Below, piece by piece: positions 4,837 through 45,742 of a DNA stretch of 45,742 nucleotides. Made by a program: the position numbers and the translations under genes. The stretch is from Bifiguratus adelaidae. Its lineage: Eukaryota > Mucoromycota > Endogonomycetes > Endogonales. Under the pieces are notes generated by a model. The model was not told the origin of the DNA. It saw nothing but the letters and a program-made list of their open reading frames with translations, and made no database searches. Numbering within the stretch: position 1 is the stretch's first letter; every line of letters starts with the position of its first letter. The stretch spans positions 1 to 45,742 of the forward strand of contig MVBO01000117.1 of NCBI GenBank assembly GCA_002261195.1, read 5' to 3'.

Positions 4837-6301
<1,465 letters not shown>

Positions 6302-32926: not shown

Positions 32927-35873
32927 CTAATCCTCGTCATCTTGTGCCTCCTCGGCATCCATATCATAGACGACTGCATGTCGACGTTGATGACTAAGGA
33001 TACAAGCGACGCGACGACCAGGTCGCCCATTAGTGGAAATGTCGTTGATGTCGGCAAAGTCTAGCTGTCGCATCTTGTCCAATTGGAGCTGTACCTTATA
33101 TGTAACCTATGTGAATCGGGTTGTCATGGCGTAGTGCGGCGTGAGTGACTTACCATAATGTTGTTGTCTTTGCTGACGGCTTGAAAATCCAGGACCGTCC
33201 AATTGAACAAACCGACCCAGGTTGAGTCTAATTAGCCTTGTGAGACCACGAATAATACCGTGCATGCTGTTAGCAGCTTACCTGCATCTTTGGCTTTCAG
33301 CAGCACTGCCAGATAATCTTCGTCAAAGCCTTCAATGCCCGCTAAAAGCACTTCGCCTTGCGCATCCAAGCTAGGTCCAACAGCCAGACTGATTACGGTT
33401 GTGAGCGTAGACGATGGCTTTTGCAGCGTTTCTAATGTTTCTTCCGACAGAATGCCAACGGGAAGGTGAAGGTGTTGAGGGGATGGATGGGAAGGAAAGG
33501 TGCTTTTGCACAATCGAATATGAGGAGGAAACTCAGAACTCTGGTTGGGCTCGTAAATAGCACACAGTAATACTATTTCGCCACCCTTGCAAGAGGAATC
33601 AGCATCAACATTACGGCCATCAAACAAAATCGGCTCACCTTCGACCATACATTGTAGGATGACTTTAGAGTGCTAGTTTCTTGCGTGGACATTGGCGAAT
33701 CATCGACGGTAGTAGCAAATGATGACAGTGGTTCAACGTAGAGAATAGGCCGATCATCGTGCCTTCGTATGCTACAAATACTTTTAAGCACGCGTAAAGC
33801 CATCGACGCAAATGTTGCCATGGTGACCGGTTCCTCCATTGTTTCCTCACTGGTGGATCGAGGCAATTTTTGCGTAGACCTAGGTATTTTGACCCGCCTA
33901 GGAGGATCCAGCGTATATCCACGAAGTTGATCTAATTTTTCGGGTCGATGCATTTGATCAATGGCCGACAAGAGGTCTTTTCCATCGCTGGAAAAGTATT
34001 CGCTTAGGGGATCACCAGTCAGGCTGTTACGGATGAAATCAGCGACAATGCGATTGTCGACGGAGTATTTTGGTCTCGGAATCGATCCGTCTTCTGCGGC
34101 GCTCAGTTCTACAGCTAACAAACGAGACTATGGGCTCAATGAAGATAGACACAGCGAGGATTGTCTCGTACCTTGATTTAGCCAGAGAGCAAACTCTTTA
34201 AAAGCATTCGCCTCCTTTTCAATTTTGTCCAGAAGCTCATTGGCCACCAGCAGAAATGCGGACGACATGTGTATCAATTCCTCAATGTACCTTGTACGTG
34301 CCGCGTCACCCCGCCGGCTGTCTTCCCTATGGACGACCTGTTAGTCTCGTCTGGTAGAGTGACGTTCATCCACGCCTACCATCTGCTTTGGCCCAACATG
34401 TCGGTGAGGCTCAAGAGTAGCCTTTCGCCAGCCGGTTGAATGTGCTTGATGATGAGAATCCTCATGTTGGCCCATCCACTATCTGTTTGTCGTGTCCACT
34501 TTTTCAGTCCCTAAAGTATTTGAAGCATGAGGCATTGTAACCTGACCATCCATGGCAAATACAACTTACTCTTGGGGTCAAATGTCGTTGTAGAAAGAGG
34601 TTTACCGGTTCGCTCGGTGTCCCAGTGCCCAACATGCCGAGTAGCTCGATTTTGGGTGTTGCATTAGGTTCTGGATCGCCAAATTAGCGTCAAAATGCTA
34701 ACCGAAGCTAGTGAGACCCATACCGTTGTGATCATCCAAAATTTGCTGGAAAGCATTCACATATTCCCCAGTAAGCTCGGTGGCTCTCTTGTAATCGCCT
34801 TCAAGCGCCTTATACGCTTCCGAGATATAGGTGAGCAGTGACTCGCATGTCCAGGCTTTGCGCGCCAGCAATTGCATTTCGGCGAGTGTGTCTCCGGTCA
34901 AACCTGTGCCGACCATGGCTTGCTGAATGATGTCTTGTCCGTTGTATACTGTCCCCCGCAAGAGCAATGCAATTTTGGAGAGGTCGGGAAACGCTTTTAT
35001 AGAAAGTATGTCCGTGAATTTGACGTCAGGAACAGACACGATATCTTCGAGCCTATATACTTTGAGATCCAACATTCCGCAGACACTGCAGCATGATGAG
35101 ATGAACGAAAAGCTTAGGAAATTTGGCTTTAGCCACTTGCCTCATATACAAAACATGTTCGCGGTTTGCCACCACCAATAGATCAACCACGTCCGACGGT
35201 TTCAACCATGGTGCTTGCTGGATGGTGCTTGCGTTTGATTTCCGGTCTACAGAAAAGACATCTCTACAAAACATTATGGAGTCTTAGTAGCGATACAACG
35301 CAAAGGCTTGCCTACGACGTACCCTGTACCAGGTCGAGGAAGCTCTTCGAGAGGCGGCAAACGTTTTGTAATGCTTTCCAACGACGGATCTTCAGTCTAA
35401 AACGGCATTCATCAGACATCCTGCACCGTTATCATCCGCGTCGCGTACCCAGGCATCGGACATGGTGAGCTTGTTGGTCACACAAGCACTATTGTCCGCC
35501 CAATGGATCCGTTCAATGGCTGCCGTCCCACATGCAAGCCGTCGAACACATGTATCAATTCCAATATCATGTAACTCAACCATGCCATTGTTCCAGCCAA
35601 TGGCGAGCAACAAGCCTAGAGGAGATGAATATCCACCTACATCTTGTCCTTGTGTCCAAGAACCCTACCGTCAGGCTTCCACTCTATGCTAGTGACAACC
35701 TTGTCGTCGTCTCCTGCAAGCGACCAGATCTTTGTCCAAGTGATTCGGTAAGCTGTCACTGAACCACTGCTGCTCAGTAGAGCAACAACATCCATGGTTG
35801 GACACCATGCTATCTGTCTTGTTGTCTCGCGGTGCAAGTGTTCTGATAACTGGTGAAAGGAACGCGTCGGCAT
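32927..35873 (-). CDS. APC4: Anaphase-promoting complex subunit 4
   Basis: Scaffold subunit of the APC/C ubiquitin ligase that drives anaphase and mitotic exit. Twelve exons (35873-35669, 35615-35449, 35396-35330, 35282-35141, 35085-34724, 34670-34570, 34510-34380, 34326-34172, 34114-33639, 33585-33282, 33227-33154, 33106-32927) sum to 2364 nt, 787 aa, as expected. N-terminal WD40 part: FHQLSEHLHRETTRQIAWCP, VTSIEWKPDGLLLAIGWNNG. Middle APC4 domain: FPDLSKIALLLRG, GLKKWTRQTDSGWANMRILI, RYIEELIHMSSAFLLVANEL, NRIVADFIRNSL. C-terminus acidic (DAEEAQDDED). Intron 4 (35086-35140) uses a GC donor (AG|GCAAGT); no GT donor restores frame. It is divergent from PIG-P, starts 54 bp apart. Confidence 0.93.
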
Positions 35874-36831: not shown

Positions 36832-36980
36832 ACGTAGTCTGAATCACCCGTTGGATACCGTCCAGCCGATCAACCTCATCAGCGTCCGCTGCGCGCCGAC
36901 AAGGTATAAATGGAAGAGTCAACGTTGAGGCAAGACAGAGCGCAACCGTTCTGCAATCTTCTCTTCATCAATTCTTACGA

Positions 36981-38546
36981 ATGGGAATCTTTACAACTCG
37001 CAATCGCTTGACCCAATTGGTCATTGTCGTCTTTGTACTGCAAGCGTCGCTCTTTGTCTTGAAGGTCGACGCGAGAAATCCTTCCGTTGGTGTTCCAGGT
37101 GGTGGAAGACCTGGAGGGTTGTATAAGCGCTGGCTTGGCTGTTTTGGCTGCGAGGAGTGCGGTGGCTTCGAGGAGGAGTGCGGAGGCGAAGACATGTTCG
37201 CCGAATGTGAAAACAATGAACGCTGTCGAGAAATTGCAGCCGAGGAGTGTGAAAACCTGGATGTCAATGTCTGCTGCTCTTCACAAGAGGCGTTCTGCTG
37301 CACCAACGCTGAATGTGAATCTGAGGCTGAAAGTATGTCATGCAAGCGGAAGAGACAGTTTGGTTGTTTTGGTGGTTGTGGTGGTTGTGGATGCAATGAC
37401 GAAGAGTTTATGAGTGCCGAGTGCGAGAACGAGGAATGCTGCGAACAGCTCGCTTTCGAGGAGTGTGAAAACCTGGATGTCAATGTCTGCTGCTCTTCAC
37501 AAGAGGCTTTCTGTTGCACGACTAGCGAGTGCGAGAATGAAGACGAATTTTCCAGATGCGGCTTCAAGCGTAGCCCTCATATGGGAGGCAACCAGAACAG
37601 GGGAAGTCACTTCAAGCGTTTTTGTGGCGATGATTTTATTGAAGCGCACTGCTTTGACGAGGCTTGCTTCGATAACGAAGCTTTCGAGGAGTGTGAAAAC
37701 CTGAATATCAATGTCTGCTGCTCCGAGCAAGAGGCTTTCTGTTGCACGACTAGCGAGTGCGAGAGTGAAGACGAACTTTTCGACTGCGGCTTCAAGCGTA
37801 GCTATCCTGGAGCCAACAGGAACCGCATGTACAAGCGTTCTCGTGGACCTGCACCAGGTAATATGCGGCCATACTACAAGCGTTCTCGCGGTACTTCACA
37901 GTGGGGTCATGCTCCTTTTGCCAAACGTCGATGCGGTTTTGGTAACTGTGGTGATGACTTTGACTCTTTCGAGTGCTTTGATGAGGCTTGCTTCGACAAC
38001 GAAGCCTTTGAGAGCTGCGAGAACCTTGAGGCCAATATTTGCTGTTCGGAGCAGGAGGCATTCTGCTGCACAAACTCGGATTGTTTTTCTGATGCTGATT
38101 TCTTTGATTGTACAGGATGGAAGCGAAGTGGCTACCCCAGTAACGGGGGACGCAGCGGCTACCGTCCATACAAACGTAGTCTTGCCCCTTCAAGACGCCC
38201 TTACAAGCGTAGTCTCGGTCGCGGAGCCAATGCACCATCCAATTCTCGCTACTATCGTCGCTCTTTTGGTCAACCCGCTCGTTCTCCTTCACGCGGAGCT
38301 CTCTACAAACGCTTCGGTGGCCTCTGCGGGCCCTGTGACGGCTGCGGGTTCCTCTGTGACCCATTTGATCCTTTCTTCGACCACTGTGAATGCGAAATAG
38401 AGGAATGCGACTGCGAAAACGATGGCTGTGTCCATGTTTGCAATCCTATTGATATCAACTGGTGCATTGACCAAGATGCTTTCTGTGAGTGCAACTCAGA
38501 GGATTGCGATCGCTCAGATGTCTTCGGCTTCGGCTTTCCCTTCTAA
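36981..38546 (+). CDS. Secreted cysteine-rich repeat preproprotein with many Kex2-type sites
   Basis: Intronless 521-aa protein; no family recognised. Residues 1-31 form a signal peptide (hydrophobic 11-27). Five Cys-rich acidic modules: about 51-121 (13 Cys), 126-193 (14), 214-269 (10), 317-377 (11), 445-509 (14). Modules 1-4 share CENLxxN[VI]CCSxQEAFCC; module 5 is a divergent version (DINWCIDQDAFCEC). Modules are separated by Arg/Tyr/Gly/Ser spacers ending in dibasic sites: KR at 49-50, 122-125, 196-197, 212-213, 272-273, 285-286, 300-301, 315-316, 381-382, 398-399, 409-410, RR at 426-427, KR at 443-444, often preceded by Tyr. This predicts Kex2 cutting into Cys-rich domains plus short basic peptides. 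Role unknown: wall protein, signalling peptides or effector. Confidence 0.9.
   Translation: MGIFTTRNRLTQLVIVVFVLQASLFVLKVDARNPSVGVPGGGRPGGLYKRWLGCFGCEECGGFEEECGGEDMFAECENNERCREIAAEECENLDVNVCCSSQEAFCCTNAECESEAESMSCKRKRQFGCFGGCGGCGCNDEEFMSAECENEECCEQLAFEECENLDVNVCCSSQEAFCCTTSECENEDEFSRCGFKRSPHMGGNQNRGSHFKRFCGDDFIEAHCFDEACFDNEAFEECENLNINVCCSEQEAFCCTTSECESEDELFDCGFKRSYPGANRNRMYKRSRGPAPGNMRPYYKRSRGTSQWGHAPFAKRRCGFGNCGDDFDSFECFDEACFDNEAFESCENLEANICCSEQEAFCCTNSDCFSDADFFDCTGWKRSGYPSNGGRSGYRPYKRSLAPSRRPYKRSLGRGANAPSNSRYYRRSFGQPARSPSRGALYKRFGGLCGPCDGCGFLCDPFDPFFDHCECEIEECDCENDGCVHVCNPIDINWCIDQDAFCECNSEDCDRSDVFGFGFPF
37249..37782 (+). repeat. Tandem nucleotide repeats encoding the Cys-rich modules
   Basis: The module core is repeated almost without change: about 50 nt beginning GAGGAGTGTGAAAACCTGGA at 37,249 recur at 37,459, and a close variant at 37,687; the following TTTCTGTTGCACGACTAGCG occurs at 37,507 and 37,735. 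Spacing is about 210-228 nt. Such high nucleotide identity suggests recent duplication or gene conversion among modules 1-3, while modules 4 and 5 have diverged. Confidence 0.85.
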
Positions 38547-38715: not shown

Positions 38716-39844
38716 CTATATGAGGGAAATCTTGCTTCTGACAAGATGACCTTTAAAGTTTTTCAGTGGTTTAGGCGCATACTGCATCCGCCGAAAGGCT
38801 TCCTGAATATGAATGGACTTAAGCGGGGTCTGCTCGTTTTTTGGCAAGCTAAAGAGTCCTCCGGTAGCACCGGCACCCGCATTTTCGTCCTCGTCTTCTT
38901 CGTCGGCTTCACGTTTCCGTTTACCACCTACGGCATCATCCACCTCACCGCCTCGATGGCGAGCAGCCTCAGAACCGGCCCATTCGTTCTTGACCTTCAT
39001 GGCTGCTTCGGTGATGGTACTGACCATCTCAAAGGTCAAAAAGCCAAGAATATCAATAATGTCATCATTGGGTTTCACGTCAAGCAGCGTCGACATGTTG
39101 GCCCAATCCCGGAACCGCTTTCCTTTCCGATAGGTGAAGCTCGCCTGCCGACACTCGGAATAATGCACATATTCTTCCCGACTCATGGCTCGAGTCACGG
39201 CGTCAGCGTCTCGTAATCGTTGAACACTTTCGTTGTACGCTTCCACTTCATCATCGTCTTCCGAGTCGGAATCGGCTCCAGCGTTCATGGCATCTGAGAA
39301 GGCGTTGACGAGTTCCCATGGTAACTTGATGACCCTCCGCCGTACCTTGCCTCCTTTATCTACATTCACGGTCAATCTTGTTTAGTCTGCATTCCATCCT
39401 ACTCACCTGCTTCTGTATCATCAAGATCCACATCGTCGACGGTCGCATCGGTAGGATCGTTGGCTTTGGCATTCTTGCGTACTTCCTTCCAGCTGAGAAA
39501 CGATCGCAACCGATTGACTTTGCCTCGGTCATGCCGCACCAAGAATATAAGATCTTCTGGTGATATATGACGTGATCCTCGTCGATGAGCAAGCGCCGAG
39601 CCTTGAAGGATCTGCAAGACAACCGCTAATGAGCATCACAACCGCATTGACGTCGCACACCTACAATCTCCACCACTTGAGATTTTACAATGTCTTCTAC
39701 CAGGTTGACCGTCTCTGGGAGGGGATCCGATACCTCTCCCGTAACAAACATCATTTGAGAGATTTCATTGGCATACTTGGGTCCCTTGTCTGCCTTGTCT
39801 GCCTTTTTGGACATTCTGGAGAGCGGAAGGGTGAGGTGTGACAT
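38716..39844 (-). CDS. SPT3: SAGA subunit Spt3
   Basis: TBP-interacting SAGA subunit with two histone folds, acting at TATA promoters. Exons 39844-39665, 39611-39407 and 39359-38716 sum to 1029 nt, 342 aa. Signatures: KYANEISQMMFVTGEVSDPL, PETVNLVEDIVKSQVVEI, then RRGSRHISPEDLIFLVRHDR and RLRSFLSWKEVRKNAK (first fold); EEYVHYSECRQASFTYRKGK, FRDWANMSTLLDVKPNDDII and ILGFLTFEMVSTITEAAM (second fold); C-terminus NFKGHLVRSKISLI. The start ATG is only 20 bp from that of MHF1 on the other strand. A downstream in-frame ATG (MSKKADK, 10 codons in) is an alternative. Confidence 0.94.
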
Positions 39845-40535: not shown

Positions 40536-43404
40536 TTATGATACGTGGACACGCCGCATTTTGGCAATCACATCTTGTATCTCAGTCCTTTGCTCCACCT
40601 TTGCCTCAGATAATTCACTCGCCTCCATTTGAACAGCTCGCAAAATCTGAGTAATTTCATCTGTAGGTTCCACGTCGAAAGCCGTCAAGACATTGACGAG
40701 GTATTCAATGTCGGTTGCGAGTTGTTTGGCACCTGAAGCACTGAGGTATGGAATGGCGAGGATTTCTTGCACAACTGTATGCATCACCCCTCGCGAGACG
40801 GACGTCATCCATCGGTGCGTAATGTCCTCGGTCGTCAGCTGGGAATGATTGGAATGAAATCGCTTCCGAATCGTGGTTGGGGATGCCGATGCTGTGGGTG
40901 TTTGAAGCTCTTCCTGTTGATCCATGCCACCTACAAAGTCGGAGACCTTGTCTGATTCTCCAGTCTCGGTCGGCTCCTGTTTAGTCATGTAGGGCAAATC
41001 ATCCACGATGAGGCCAAGGGTATCGTTGTCGGAATACATCTCAAGATGAGGTGGGAGCATGAGAAGTTGTTCGCCGACTTTGGTAATGTATTCGGAGGGT
41101 GATAAACTGAATTTCGGCATATTGTTGAGGATGGATCGAGATCGGCGTCGGTCAAAGGCTTGATCGTTCCAAAGCCGATCATTGTGGCGAAGGTTCTTTA
41201 GACTTTTGGTCACATGTGCTTCAATGCTTTTGTATACGTTCATTCGGCAGGCTGCAATGCAGCGCAAAAGTGCTTGTCGTGCAGGAAGAAGAAGGACGTC
41301 GTCAGTCTTGTCGAGACTTTCAAAAATTCTGGCGAGTTCAAAGTTATTGAGTGTACTCGATCGCAAGAGCGATACGGCTGCCGAGGCTGGTTTACGATCT
41401 TGCGTTTGTTGGAATTGAGGGGATATGCTGAAACTGCGTCGCCGCGTGCTTGGATAGAGACCTGAATCGGCCTTTATCGACTCGCGATGTTTTACGCTCT
41501 GTCTCCGATCTCGTTTTGTCGATATTGAGCTACGGTTGGAAAGACTGGAATGGCGGAAAAGTGGTGCAGCCAGAGACGCGACACTATCTTCACGTTCATA
41601 TCCTAAGACATGGATTTCGCATGATCGTAAAGCATGCTCAACATCGACTTCGAGGCTGTATAACCGATCGTCGAGAACCTGGCACAGTTTGAGCCAAGAT
41701 AGTCGCGCTTGAAAATCGCTCCATTGATCCGTCTCTCCTCCACTCGCCGCACCTTCCAAGCTAAAGCTGGCCACGCTGGGCAAAGCCATTCCGGAGAAGC
41801 GTCGTGAATTGCGTGGCGATAGGACGGGCCGTTTGACCACGGGTTCTTCCTCAGCCATCTTCTCAAAAGCTTGCGTGATGGTGTCGAAGTACTTGTTGAG
41901 ACTATTCAGCATGCCTGGAGCTCCAAACCCAAAGGTGAAAGATGTGCAATGATGCACCGCATTACTGGGCCCTTCAAAGAACTTCACCGTATTATCAATG
42001 AGGAATTTTGCCCTTTCGAGATGAGCCATCTTACGCGCTTGCTCCACGACGGCATCAGACTTTGATGTTAGGTACCGTAGTTCATAATCACCGTAGTCAC
42101 GTTGGTAGGGCAAGAAAGGCTCAAACAATACGTATGCCCAAGCGGTGGGATCATCCTGCAAGGGAGGCCGACCACTAAGAGCAGAAGCGCTTGATGCTGA
42201 ACGGCGATCAACATCGCGTCTAGATGCTATGGAGTCCTGTGCCGGTGAGAGCGCATGACTGAGGATATGACTACTTTCGCCGAGTATACCAGCCCGGCTA
42301 AGAGATTTTTCAAGCTCGACGGTGATTGTGAAGGCTTGTATGAGATGCTCTAGCGCGCCTTCATGCAAAGTGATACTGGAAAGCCGTGTTGCAAAGGATG
42401 GATCAAGATGTGCGAAAATGTGCTGTAGAAATTTGTAAATGACAAGCTTTGGATCGTTGACGATGTTGGTGCACCAAGCATACTCTTCGCTCAAAACGAT
42501 AAATACTTCCTGGTGAAATTGTGATAATAGATGCGAGAAGGCTGTGGCGCTTTCGTCAATGACCTCTGACGTCAAACTGAAATTTGACCATATCGACCGT
42601 ATCTTGACGGAGCGCTCGTTAAAGTAAACATTGAAAAAGATGTCTTCTTGTCCGAGTTGTTGATAGATGCGATAAAAACGGCGACTGGCAACGGCATCCC
42701 TGGCTTGCAAGGCTCGATCTAGCAAAGGTCGCACTGCCTCTTCCAAATCGTCACGAAGCCGCGCGAGCAATTCCTGACGATAGGCATAGTCTGCAGTGTT
42801 GTGAAAGACTTGTAAACTCTTGCCGGCATCTTCCAGACGACCTCCAGCTTTCTCAAAGTCCTTGGCTTCAATGAATGCCTTTGCTTCTACCTCCAAGTTG
42901 ATCCAATTGTCGGCTTCCTTGAGAGCAGCCCGACAAGCCTCCATGCGCGTTTTCACAAGATCCAACTGCTTGAGGTGAAGTAATCCTTTGGCTGTCTCAT
43001 CATCCAGGCTCGTAATCTGCTCCTTGACACTATCAACGACCTGTCGCACCGACGCAGCCTCGTCCTTCATCCAAGTTAAATCATACACGATACGCGGCAT
43101 CCGAGCCACCATATCCTTGGACACCTTCCCAAAGGTCTCAGACACGTCTTGGTTAAGTATTTGTAATCGACTCAGCAGCGCTACAGCCTGCCATTCCGTA
43201 TCATACGACCGAACCTCTACCGAATGAGTACGTGAACACCATCCCATCTCACTCACCTTGTGCTGGTTCATCAACCTCGCCTCTAGGTACACCTAATCCA
43301 CTCGCTTCCTGCACCCTTCCATTGGTCTGTTGTGACAATGCGCGGTTGATCCAACTCTTGATGTCTACACTTTTGTCTCCCAACGTCTCCAATATCGCCT
43401 CCAT
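40536..43404 (-). CDS. COG7: Conserved oligomeric Golgi complex subunit 7
   Basis: Lobe B subunit of the COG tether for retrograde intra-Golgi vesicles. Two exons (43404-43257, 43216-40536) joined by a 40-nt intron give 942 aa. The N-terminal signature is DKSVDIKSWINRALSQ, followed by LLSRLQILNQDVSETF, DLTWMKDEAASVRQVVDSVK, DLVKTRMEACRAALKEADNW, RRFYRIYQQLGQEDIFFNVY. Long helical coiled-coil composition throughout; a Ser/Arg-rich disordered insertion lies at about 580-640. The splice is needed to reach the real start, since the long frame itself extends with nonconserved residues into the intron. It is divergent from the ZIP gene, starts 14 bp apart. Confidence 0.92.
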
Positions 43405-43418
43405 CACCAAAATCCACC

Positions 43419-44444
43419 ATGTCTTTTAGCGCGTTCGTCCTGGAGTACCTCTTTCCAGGGTCCGCGTTGACCAACTCTCTCTTGGCAACCGCCTACATTT
43501 CGCTCTTTCCTAACCTCTTGCTGTACTTTGTGCCGCCAGATATCGATACAGCGTCTCTCAACACGCTCGTGGCTTTTGCAGTCGGTGGTTTGTTAGGCGA
43601 TGTCTTTCTACATTTGCTCCCCCATGCGTTCCTTGGAGAGCATTTCGAAGCAGATGCGGTGGTAGCTGTTGATGAACGCAAGAACGTCTTGGTGGGTCTT
43701 GGCATCTTTGTGGGATTAGCATTCTTTTATGTGATGGATAAGGGCATGCGGGTGTTGAATGGTGGAGATGGACAACACGCGCATGGTCACACGCACGCGG
43801 TCGAGAGTTCAGGGCATTCAACAGGTGTTCAAGAGCATACGACGGAGGCCAAGAAACGCGGAAAGAAGGCCAAGAAGGGAGAAGAAGAAGACGATAAAGA
43901 CAACGCCGTGGATCACAAGCCGACGTCGTCCATCAAACTCTCTGCGTACCTCAATCTCTTTGCCGATGCGACCCACAACTTTACCGACGGTCTTGCCCTG
44001 TCTGCTTCTTTCTACGCGTCACCGGCGGTTGGCGCCACCACTGCCGTGGCCGTCTTCTTTCACGAGATCCCCCATGAAGTAGGTGACTATGCGATCCTCA
44101 TCCAATCCGGCTTTTCCAAACAACGCGCCATGATGGCTCAATTCACGACAGCAGTGGGTGCCTTTCTGGGTACCTTGGCTGGTATTGCGATTGAAGAGAC
44201 GCAGCAGGATTTCTCGGTCGTCAAAGGAGCTGGGATTGCAGGCACCGATTTACGATGGGGTGATTTGGTCATTCCCTTCACGGCCGGAGGCTTTCTCTAC
44301 ATTGCGACTGTAGGCGTAATCCCAGAGTTGTTGCAGGTCTCTGGCCACTTTCGTAAAGACGCTAGACAAATGATGTATGAAATCGTGGCTTTATCGGTTG
44401 GATTGGGCATGATGGCTTTCATTGCTTGGTCTGAAGCCACCTAG
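43419..44444 (+). CDS. YKE4: ZIP-family zinc transporter (Yke4/SLC39A7-SLC39A13 type)
   Basis: Intronless 341-aa membrane protein moving zinc from the ER/Golgi or secretory lumen to the cytosol. About eight hydrophobic segments; the N-terminal two include LVAFAVGGLLGDVFLHLLPH. The cytosolic loop between spans 3 and 4 is His-rich (GDGQHAHGHTHAVESSGHS) followed by a Lys/Glu-rich stretch. The metal-binding span 4 reads LFADATHNFTDGLALSASF, and span 5 contains the LZT-subfamily motif HEIPHEVGDYAIL. The C-terminus is FIAWSEAT. Start ATG is 14 bp from the COG7 start. The glutaredoxin-like gene begins 6 bp after its stop. Confidence 0.94.
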   Translation: MSFSAFVLEYLFPGSALTNSLLATAYISLFPNLLLYFVPPDIDTASLNTLVAFAVGGLLGDVFLHLLPHAFLGEHFEADAVVAVDERKNVLVGLGIFVGLAFFYVMDKGMRVLNGGDGQHAHGHTHAVESSGHSTGVQEHTTEAKKRGKKAKKGEEEDDKDNAVDHKPTSSIKLSAYLNLFADATHNFTDGLALSASFYASPAVGATTAVAVFFHEIPHEVGDYAILIQSGFSKQRAMMAQFTTAVGAFLGTLAGIAIEETQQDFSVVKGAGIAGTDLRWGDLVIPFTAGGFLYIATVGVIPELLQVSGHFRKDARQMMYEIVALSVGLGMMAFIAWSEAT

Positions 44445-44870: not shown

Positions 44871-45742
44871 TTAAGCGTCTGACTTGGCCAGTGGGGCACT
44901 TGCAGCAGCATGGGAAGCCGATGGCTCTTGCGGTGTGGGGGAACGTCCAGCGTCGTGCTTGCCCTCTCCGGGATGAACATGTTCTACACTTTCTTGTGCC
45001 TGCGTTTCCTGTCCATGGTCGTAGTCATGCTCGTGACCTGGATAGTCATGCTTGTGGTAATATTCGGGTGGATAATCATGACGGTATCCCATCGGAGGTT
45101 GGCTCGCACGAGGATCGTACACATAATCGTGAGGATGATGATGATGGTGGTAATGATAGTCGTCATGAGGATCTTGGCCATTGCCATTCATGCCAGAGTA
45201 ATGGTGATGAGGAGGAGGCGGAGGATGATGAGGATGATGAGGATGATGGGGTGGAGGGGCGTGGTGGGCGGGCGGATGTCCATAGGGAGTGTAGATGGGA
45301 GCTTCGTCACCGGTACCACTGGAATTGGACATCATGCTCGCTTGGGAATCCTGTCGCATGCGTGCATGCCAGGGATCTTCGCGATGCGTCGGCGGACCTT
45401 GAGGCATATGTTTGTGAGCGGGATCGGGAGAAATGTATTCTCCATTTCCATAATAGGCTTCACCCGCTTCAGAACGCGTTACTTCTTCATTCTTGTAGCC
45501 AGTTGGAGGATGAGCATCGGAGGTTTGAGGAGGAGGAGGCAAGGCTTGAGAATGCGGAGGCGGTGGGTATCCATGTGGAGGTGGTTGATCGCCCGGTCGA
45601 ATAGGCGCACCAGGAACGGGAGAGAACTGCGCATAGCCAGAATAGTGAGGATAGGAGGGATAGGGGTAGTCGACAGCACCATTGGGAGTACTGGGGGCGC
45701 TTCTGGGACCGGAAAAATGAGGATAACGTCCATCAGCACCAC
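44871..45742 (-). CDS. Pro/His/Tyr-rich disordered protein (5' end beyond window)
   Basis: Open in one frame from the window edge to the stop at 44,871, at least 290 aa; the N-terminus lies outside. Composition is extreme in Pro, His, Tyr, Gly and Ser, with runs such as PPHHPHHPHHPPPPPHHHY and DDYHYHHHHHPHDYVYDP and spaced Tyr motifs (GRYPHFSG, YPYPSYPHYSGY). A possible phospho motif is DAGRSPTPQEPS near the end. This is the kind of tail found in disordered transcription or RNA-binding proteins, or a histidine-rich metal binder; no domain is visible, so no function is assigned. It is convergent with the glutaredoxin-like gene (113 bp). Confidence 0.75.
   Translation of the reverse strand, partial: GADGRYPHFSGPRSAPSTPNGAVDYPYPSYPHYSGYAQFSPVPGAPIRPGDQPPPHGYPPPPHSQALPPPPQTSDAHPPTGYKNEEVTRSEAGEAYYGNGEYISPDPAHKHMPQGPPTHREDPWHARMRQDSQASMMSNSSGTGDEAPIYTPYGHPPAHHAPPPHHPHHPHHPPPPPHHHYSGMNGNGQDPHDDYHYHHHHHPHDYVYDPRASQPPMGYRHDYPPEYYHKHDYPGHEHDYDHGQETQAQESVEHVHPGEGKHDAGRSPTPQEPSASHAAASAPLAKSDA

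Follow-up and report, generated by a model that had tools for sequence, protein, structure and literature searches.

The window analysed here is a 45,742-nt stretch of DNA from Bifiguratus adelaidae, which is placed by NCBI in the Mucoromycotina, Endogonales. This fungus lives in soil and roots, and the Endogonales are an order with root-associated members. At 36981-38546 on the plus strand, an ORF that is open throughout encodes a 521-aa polyprotein with 62 Cys, 14 Lys, and 38 Arg residues, its start at 36981 being the earliest ATG, GTG, or TTG downstream of the preceding stop codon; the coordinates and frame given for it in a preliminary description proved exact. The gene is flanked by an ANAPC4-like ORF (34698-35075, minus strand) and COG7 (40536-43292, minus strand), with MDM31 located upstream, a ZIP transporter gene located beyond COG7, and an ORF with no family assignment (38716-39375, minus strand) directly after it. 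No cluster partner stood out when 19 other ORFs of the window were compared with Pfam. The features of the locus, with the basis of each in brackets, are as follows.

36905..36910, plus strand: TATAAA, putative promoter, 76 nt 5' of the start codon (sequence, motif scan)
36981..38546, plus strand: whole coding sequence, 521 aa, read as one exon (open frame, codon adaptation)
36981..37073, plus strand: putative signal peptide, residues 1-31, cut site placed by eye (hydropathy)
37074..37130, plus strand: N-terminal propeptide, residues 32-50, ending in LYKR (dibasic layout)
37131..37355, plus strand: acidic module M1, 13 Cys, ending in KRKR (dibasic layout, Cys spacing)
37356..37571, plus strand: acidic module M2, 14 Cys, ending in FKR (dibasic layout, Cys spacing)
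37572..37619, plus strand: basic spacer peptide 1, ending in FKR (dibasic layout)
37620..37799, plus strand: acidic module M3, 10 Cys, ending in FKR (dibasic layout, Cys spacing)
37800..37928, plus strand: basic spacer peptides 2-4, ending in YKR, YKR, and AKR (dibasic layout)
37929..38126, plus strand: acidic module M4, 11 Cys, ending in WKR (dibasic layout, Cys spacing)
38127..38312, plus strand: basic spacer peptides 5-8, an inner RR in one of them being a further possible cut site (dibasic layout)
38313..38543, plus strand: acidic module M5, 14 Cys, diverged, C-terminal product (Cys spacing, shuffled alignments)

Codon adaptation was calculated with histone genes of the same genome as the reference (four stretches, 419 codons). 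The polyprotein ORF reached 0.491 (z +5.4 versus recoding with background codons), compared with 0.244 in the +1 frame and 0.290 in antisense at the same locus. Among the comparison genes, the closest to it was ribosomal protein L6e at 0.552 (z +6.6, 107 codons), and values lower than that of the polyprotein were found for COG7 (0.318), a transcription factor (0.338), and the ZIP transporter (0.384, z +2.2). This histone-like codon usage supports coding and suggests strong expression. Taken together with the TATA box and the selection on the modules described below, it leads us to argue for the ORF being a real gene. Three long shadow ORFs over the gene (36968-37567, minus strand; 37711-38400, plus strand; 37792-38364, minus strand) showed no sign of being genes. 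Elsewhere in the window, an aspartyl protease ORF (5732-6301, plus strand) was as biased in codon usage as the polyprotein (0.499, z +4.5) and is perhaps strongly expressed too.

The polyprotein harbored 14 dibasic blocks (11 KR, one KRKR, and two RR), which split it into a hydrophobic N-terminal segment, five acidic Cys-rich modules, and eight short basic spacers. The preliminary description had proposed about 13 Kex2 sites separating five modules of 10-14 Cys and short basic spacers; the dibasic division and the modules (13, 14, 10, 11, and 14 Cys in M1-M5) were recovered, and the number of sites was corrected to 14 blocks. All 62 Cys fell within the modules, in which no dibasic pair was present. 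The N-terminus, judged by hydropathy only, showed a best 15-residue mean of 2.92 from residue 13. Across 10,000 shuffles, KR was expected 1.0 times with a maximum of 6, compared with 13 observed, and [KR]R was expected 3.7 times with a maximum of 11, compared with 16 observed. Moreover, 13 of the 14 lysines sat in KR, the sole exception being K28 at the end of the hydrophobic N-terminus, and an aromatic residue directly preceded 11 of the 14 cut blocks, with Ser directly following 8 of them. When all 357 stop-to-stop segments no shorter than 60 aa were taken from the six frames of the window, the polyprotein ranked first in KR (13, the runner-up having 5) and in Cys (62, the runner-up having 12); its [KR]R density of 2.8 per 100 aa was not the highest, one 78-aa segment reaching 7.7.

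Together, the modules comprised 339 residues, including 62 Cys (18%) and 92 Asp/Glu with no Lys and no Tyr, and their net charges were -18, -17, -18, -16, and -18 from M1 to M5. The Cys spacing C-x7-CC-x6-CC-x4-C-x8-C was common to M1-M4, which were 47-73% identical to one another over 55-65 aligned residues. The best local alignment score of M5 was obtained with M2 (112) and was matched in none of 2000 shuffles, likewise with Cys fixed, whereas its scores with M1, M3, and M4 were reached in 4, 14, and 62 of 2000 Cys-fixed shuffles, respectively. As judged from these alignments, M5 is a diverged relative of the other modules, with its clearest fit to M2 and weaker fits to M1, M3, and M4. Between M3 and M4, differences were found at 24.0 of 24.7 synonymous sites versus 30 of 125.3 nonsynonymous sites. 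The dN/dS ratio was 0.15 for M1/M2, 0.16 for M1/M3, and 1.32 for M2/M3 (on just 3.4 synonymous changes), these ratios being rough because synonymous change in the other pairs approaches or exceeds saturation; the block ends of M1 and M4 are, in addition, imperfectly aligned. Our guess is that the M2/M3 ratio reflects gene conversion, and the modules are read as probable old duplicates under selection. The odd Cys counts of M1 (13) and M4 (11) imply either a free thiol in each or an intermodule link surviving cutting. In comparison with Pfam, the sole match of the modules was Fibrillin_U_N, which was sub-threshold (best E 0.28) and present in two of the five, and an AlphaFold2 model of M3, built with the five modules as the alignment, was poor (pLDDT 44, pTM 0.21). 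Likenesses to hevein (CCS....FC) and granulin (CC-x6-CC) were dropped as neither family appeared among the Pfam matches, PF00187 (hevein, chitin-binding type 1) in particular matching none of the five modules.

The trimmed spacers, with SLAPSRRPY taken as one peptide, amounted to 105 residues containing no Cys, Asp, Glu, or Lys. Ser was first in all eight (0 of 200,000 shuffles), and Tyr or Phe was last in seven (2 of 200,000 shuffles), both features being counted after the pattern had been seen; Tyr was present in six of the eight. If the inner RR of SLAPSRRPY were cut, there would be nine spacers, with Ser first in eight and an aromatic residue last in seven. The modules carried a total charge of -87, compared with +14 for all eight spacers when trimmed and +30 with their dibasic ends, so that a one-to-one charge balance by the spacers is impossible. 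The suggestion of the preliminary description that modules and spacers stay associated through opposite charge is weakened by these values.

The pattern of dibasic sites and the presence of kexins in the genome agree with the earlier proposal of a secreted precursor for dibasic cutting. Considering these features, we estimate a probability of roughly 0.7 that the polyprotein belongs to the Kex2-processed repeat proteins (KEPs) and yields two classes of product, a reading made from sequence. The chain would enter the endoplasmic reticulum via the signal peptide predicted at its N-terminus, and disulfides would presumably form inside each acidic module. In the late Golgi, a kexin would then cut behind each of the 14 dibasic blocks, as suggested by the arrangement of the sites and by the kexin-like genes of this genome, and a Kex1-like carboxypeptidase might trim the basic ends. 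The expected products are five acidic Cys-rich mini-proteins of 58-77 residues and eight basic peptides of 9-15 residues with Ser first and mostly Tyr or Phe last. Two kexin-like loci, each with Peptidase_S8 and P_proprotein domains, were detected in the B. adelaidae genome:

Genome G000, contig C209, about 73.8 kb, minus strand: kexin-like locus L002 (Peptidase_S8 and P_proprotein)
Genome G000, contig C79, about 7.5 kb, plus strand: kexin-like locus L003 (Peptidase_S8 and P_proprotein)

In addition, four contigs carried 10 listed matches to S10 carboxypeptidases, some adjoining on one contig or with internal stops, and a Kex1 may be among them. As a separate observation, the two kexin-like genes in one genome contrast with the single Kex2 gene copy noted for numerous fungi in a review (PMC8528282).

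The definition of KEPs asks for a signal peptide plus three or more repeats set between Kex2 sites (PMC6339444, PMC7329392). The polyprotein has a putative signal peptide (judged by hydropathy) and resembles KEPs in having more than two related repeats, none longer than 100 aa, bounded by predicted Kex2 sites, the repeats making up half of its length. Cutting at KR/RR yielded 15 fragments of at least 2 aa past residue 32, compared with the minimum of four used for KEPs. Furthermore, KEPs are expected to have three or more similar repeats, each 8-100 aa long and together accounting for no less than 15% of the protein; M1-M4 covered 50%, their likeness being judged by identity (47-73%) and not by the similarity cut-offs of the published scripts, and the accompanying Kex2 was found in the genome as the two S8 and P-domain loci. 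The preliminary description had not recognised the combination as one of a known kind; in outline, the polyprotein instead fits the KEP class, in which precursors with several motifs are already published, 77 of the 1193 KEPs of Le Marquer et al. (2019) having two motif types and 2 having three (PMC6339444). The later survey of Umemura (2020) reported 7878 KEPs, 2560 of them without a homolog (PMC7329392). The KEP class is already known, and it is the pairing of two product classes and the orphan Cys module that look new. The polyprotein differs from known KEPs in that a single chain combines two dissimilar classes of product and in that its repeats are 58-77 aa long with 10-14 Cys, whereas the commonest KEP peptide class of Dikarya, as given in the surveys, is 9-24 aa; larger KEP peptides are recorded in Mucoromycota and chytrids (PMC6339444, PMC7329392).

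Among individual systems, Rep1 and Hum3 of Ustilago maydis are likewise precursors of repeats at Kex2 sites, with the Rep1 peptides forming fibrils on the hyphal surface and Hum3, of unknown function, carrying Kex2-separated repeats joined to a hydrophobin domain (PMC4617103). They differ from the polyprotein in their amphipathic repeats, and Hum3 has only one Cys-rich domain. To our knowledge, the repeats of neither protein are Cys modules of the present kind. The SP7 family of the plant-symbiotic fungus Rhizophagus irregularis is similar in comprising secreted repeat proteins with conserved predicted KEX2 sites, but is set apart by its description, which in the text available mentions no Cys-rich modules (PMC5293756). 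Several Cys-rich domains per secreted chain are also found in the polyhydrophobins, such as the Claviceps trihydrophobin CFTH1 and pentahydrophobin CPPH1 (PMC12375992). These have Gly/Asp-rich linkers, as far as they are described, whereas the polyprotein has Kex2-bounded basic peptides. The hydrophobin pattern consists of eight Cys in the order C-CC-C-C-CC-C, unlike the core spacing of M1-M4, and no Pfam hydrophobin match was obtained in the five modules up to E 10. Lastly, the Chitin_bind_1-annotated KEPs of type S-6 in Neocallimastix and Piromyces share an origin in early-diverging fungi and are annotated with a Cys-rich domain (PMC7329392), but the five modules of the polyprotein lack a chitin-binding match.

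Among the alternatives to a KEP precursor with two product classes, the one that survives best overlaps with it in accepting Kex2 processing. Only the modules would be active, and the spacers would be discarded pro-peptides aiding solubility, folding, or cut-site separation, a possibility that we take seriously while favoring it less. The constrained ends and variable middles of the spacers and the purifying selection on the modules are consistent with such a role, and pro-domains have been reported to aid the in vitro folding of Kex2-processed effectors (PMC8528282). However, the tandem spacers (three before M4 and four before M5) exceed the need for linkers, M1 and M2 have no spacer between them, and the composition of the spacers is narrowly constrained.

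It is distinctly unlikely that the polyprotein is a secreted metallothionein-style protein in which Cys and acidic side chains bind zinc, copper, or calcium. Such binding would suit the Cys and Asp/Glu content of the modules and the ZIP zinc transporter gene 4.9 kb downstream, but Cys in the secretory pathway are usually oxidised, the ZIP gene has matches across Mucoromycota and counts as an ordinary conserved gene, and no metallothionein match was found in Pfam. Slightly less probable again is an unprocessed Cys-rich wall protein with incidental dibasic pairs. Since Kex2 cutting is here a prediction, this reading keeps some room, but the approximately 13-fold excess of KR over expectation, which uses all lysines but one, and the modules free of internal dibasic pairs argue against it. 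The similarity of the KEP layout to alpha-factor precursors would be compatible with a peptide pheromone precursor, which we consider very unlikely, given that the spacers differ among themselves and that we know of no pheromone precursors with large Cys modules. Moreover, apocarotenoids serve as the sexual pheromones of Mucoromycotina members (PMC6339444). Least probable of all is a dikaritin-type RiPP precursor with cyclised Tyr-containing spacers, which would accord with the Tyr in six of eight spacers and the Kex2-flanked cores but is opposed by the spacers not being identical repeats, by the lack of a UstYa (DUF3328) match in the genome (in a search with no working positive control) and among the 19 window ORFs scanned, and by the survey of Umemura, which, in the part available, detected DUF3328 in none of six other phyla (PMC7329392).

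Relatives of the polyprotein were searched for in protein, DNA, and literature sources. With the whole polyprotein, phmmer examined 3796 candidates among database proteins of 286-911 aa and none reached E <=0.001, and residues 200-275 yielded no candidate; as the protein search requires shared exact five-residue words and a length of 0.55-1.75 times that of the query, distant relatives may escape it. The absence of the polyprotein among database proteins of 286-911 aa indicates that its gene probably lacks an annotation or has a different gene model. No relative was found in Pfam, NCBIfam, or PDB, among 45 pattern stretches in viral contigs, or among 217 in prokaryote contigs. The fungal DNA searched was the B. 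adelaidae genome alone, in which the whole protein, M3, M5, and the spacer/M4 stretch retrieved only the polyprotein gene itself; M5 as the query at E 10 found only M5 and missed the other modules. A back-translated pattern matched eight places in this genome, five in the polyprotein gene and three elsewhere (two mismatches), compared with one for the backward control. The three off-gene places were rejected as paralogs, with open stretches of 67, 29, and 53 aa containing 5, 2, and 1 Cys, respectively, and a stop within one motif. In the literature, nothing like the polyprotein gene was present among the matches listed for Kex2 with Cys-rich or repeat proteins, polyproteins, and Mucoromycota, and no title on secreted proteins was present among those listed for Bifiguratus, a genus that is also not named in the main texts of the KEP surveys (PMC6339444, PMC7329392).

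As for the function of the putative KEP products, the preliminary description had named pheromone-like or signalling peptides, antimicrobial peptides, an adhesive wall coat, and a host effector as candidates. The role that we favor, tentatively and by analogy, is one on the surface of the hyphae or in the space adjoining the root (apoplast). From charge alone, binding of the acidic modules to a chitosan-rich wall is conceivable, much as Rep1 coats Ustilago hyphae, and the basic peptides would diffuse as signals or antagonists. In Mucorales, chitin and chitosan dominate the wall and protein is bound to its rigid part, a composition reported for that order and not for Bifiguratus (PMC11437000). 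A fuller version, which we regard as unlikely, is a dual-cargo polyprotein in which one gene would deliver, at a fixed 5:8 ratio, a new disulfide-rich acidic fold and cooperating basic Ser...Tyr peptides. Where this early-diverging fungal lineage meets the root, the modules would act on its chitosan-rich wall, and the peptides would act on anionic polymers, membranes, or host receptors.

KEPs are widespread in fungi with functions that are largely unknown; in Coprinopsis, KEP peptides were seen by mass spectrometry and kep knockouts showed no phenotype (PMC9769878). Early-diverging fungi are thinly covered for KEPs, and the polyprotein adds an orphan Cys-rich module family from the Endogonales. 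Should the processing prove real, it would show that Cys-rich mini-proteins and short basic peptides can be combined in one fungal precursor; animal prohormone and venom precursors pair products similarly. Furthermore, the polyprotein is missing from a database in which one or more further proteins of the same contig are present, implying that annotation-based surveys may have missed it. Near the contig end, downstream of the ZIP gene, lies a His/Pro-rich ORF of 223 aa with no Pfam match (44871-45542, minus strand). The ZIP ORF itself (43419-44444, plus strand) is 100% identical to BZG36_04938 of B. adelaidae over 96% of its length, and the public model of the latter (446 aa, partial) combines PF05768 with ZIP (PF02535), whereas the window ORF holds ZIP alone, so the public model is possibly fused.
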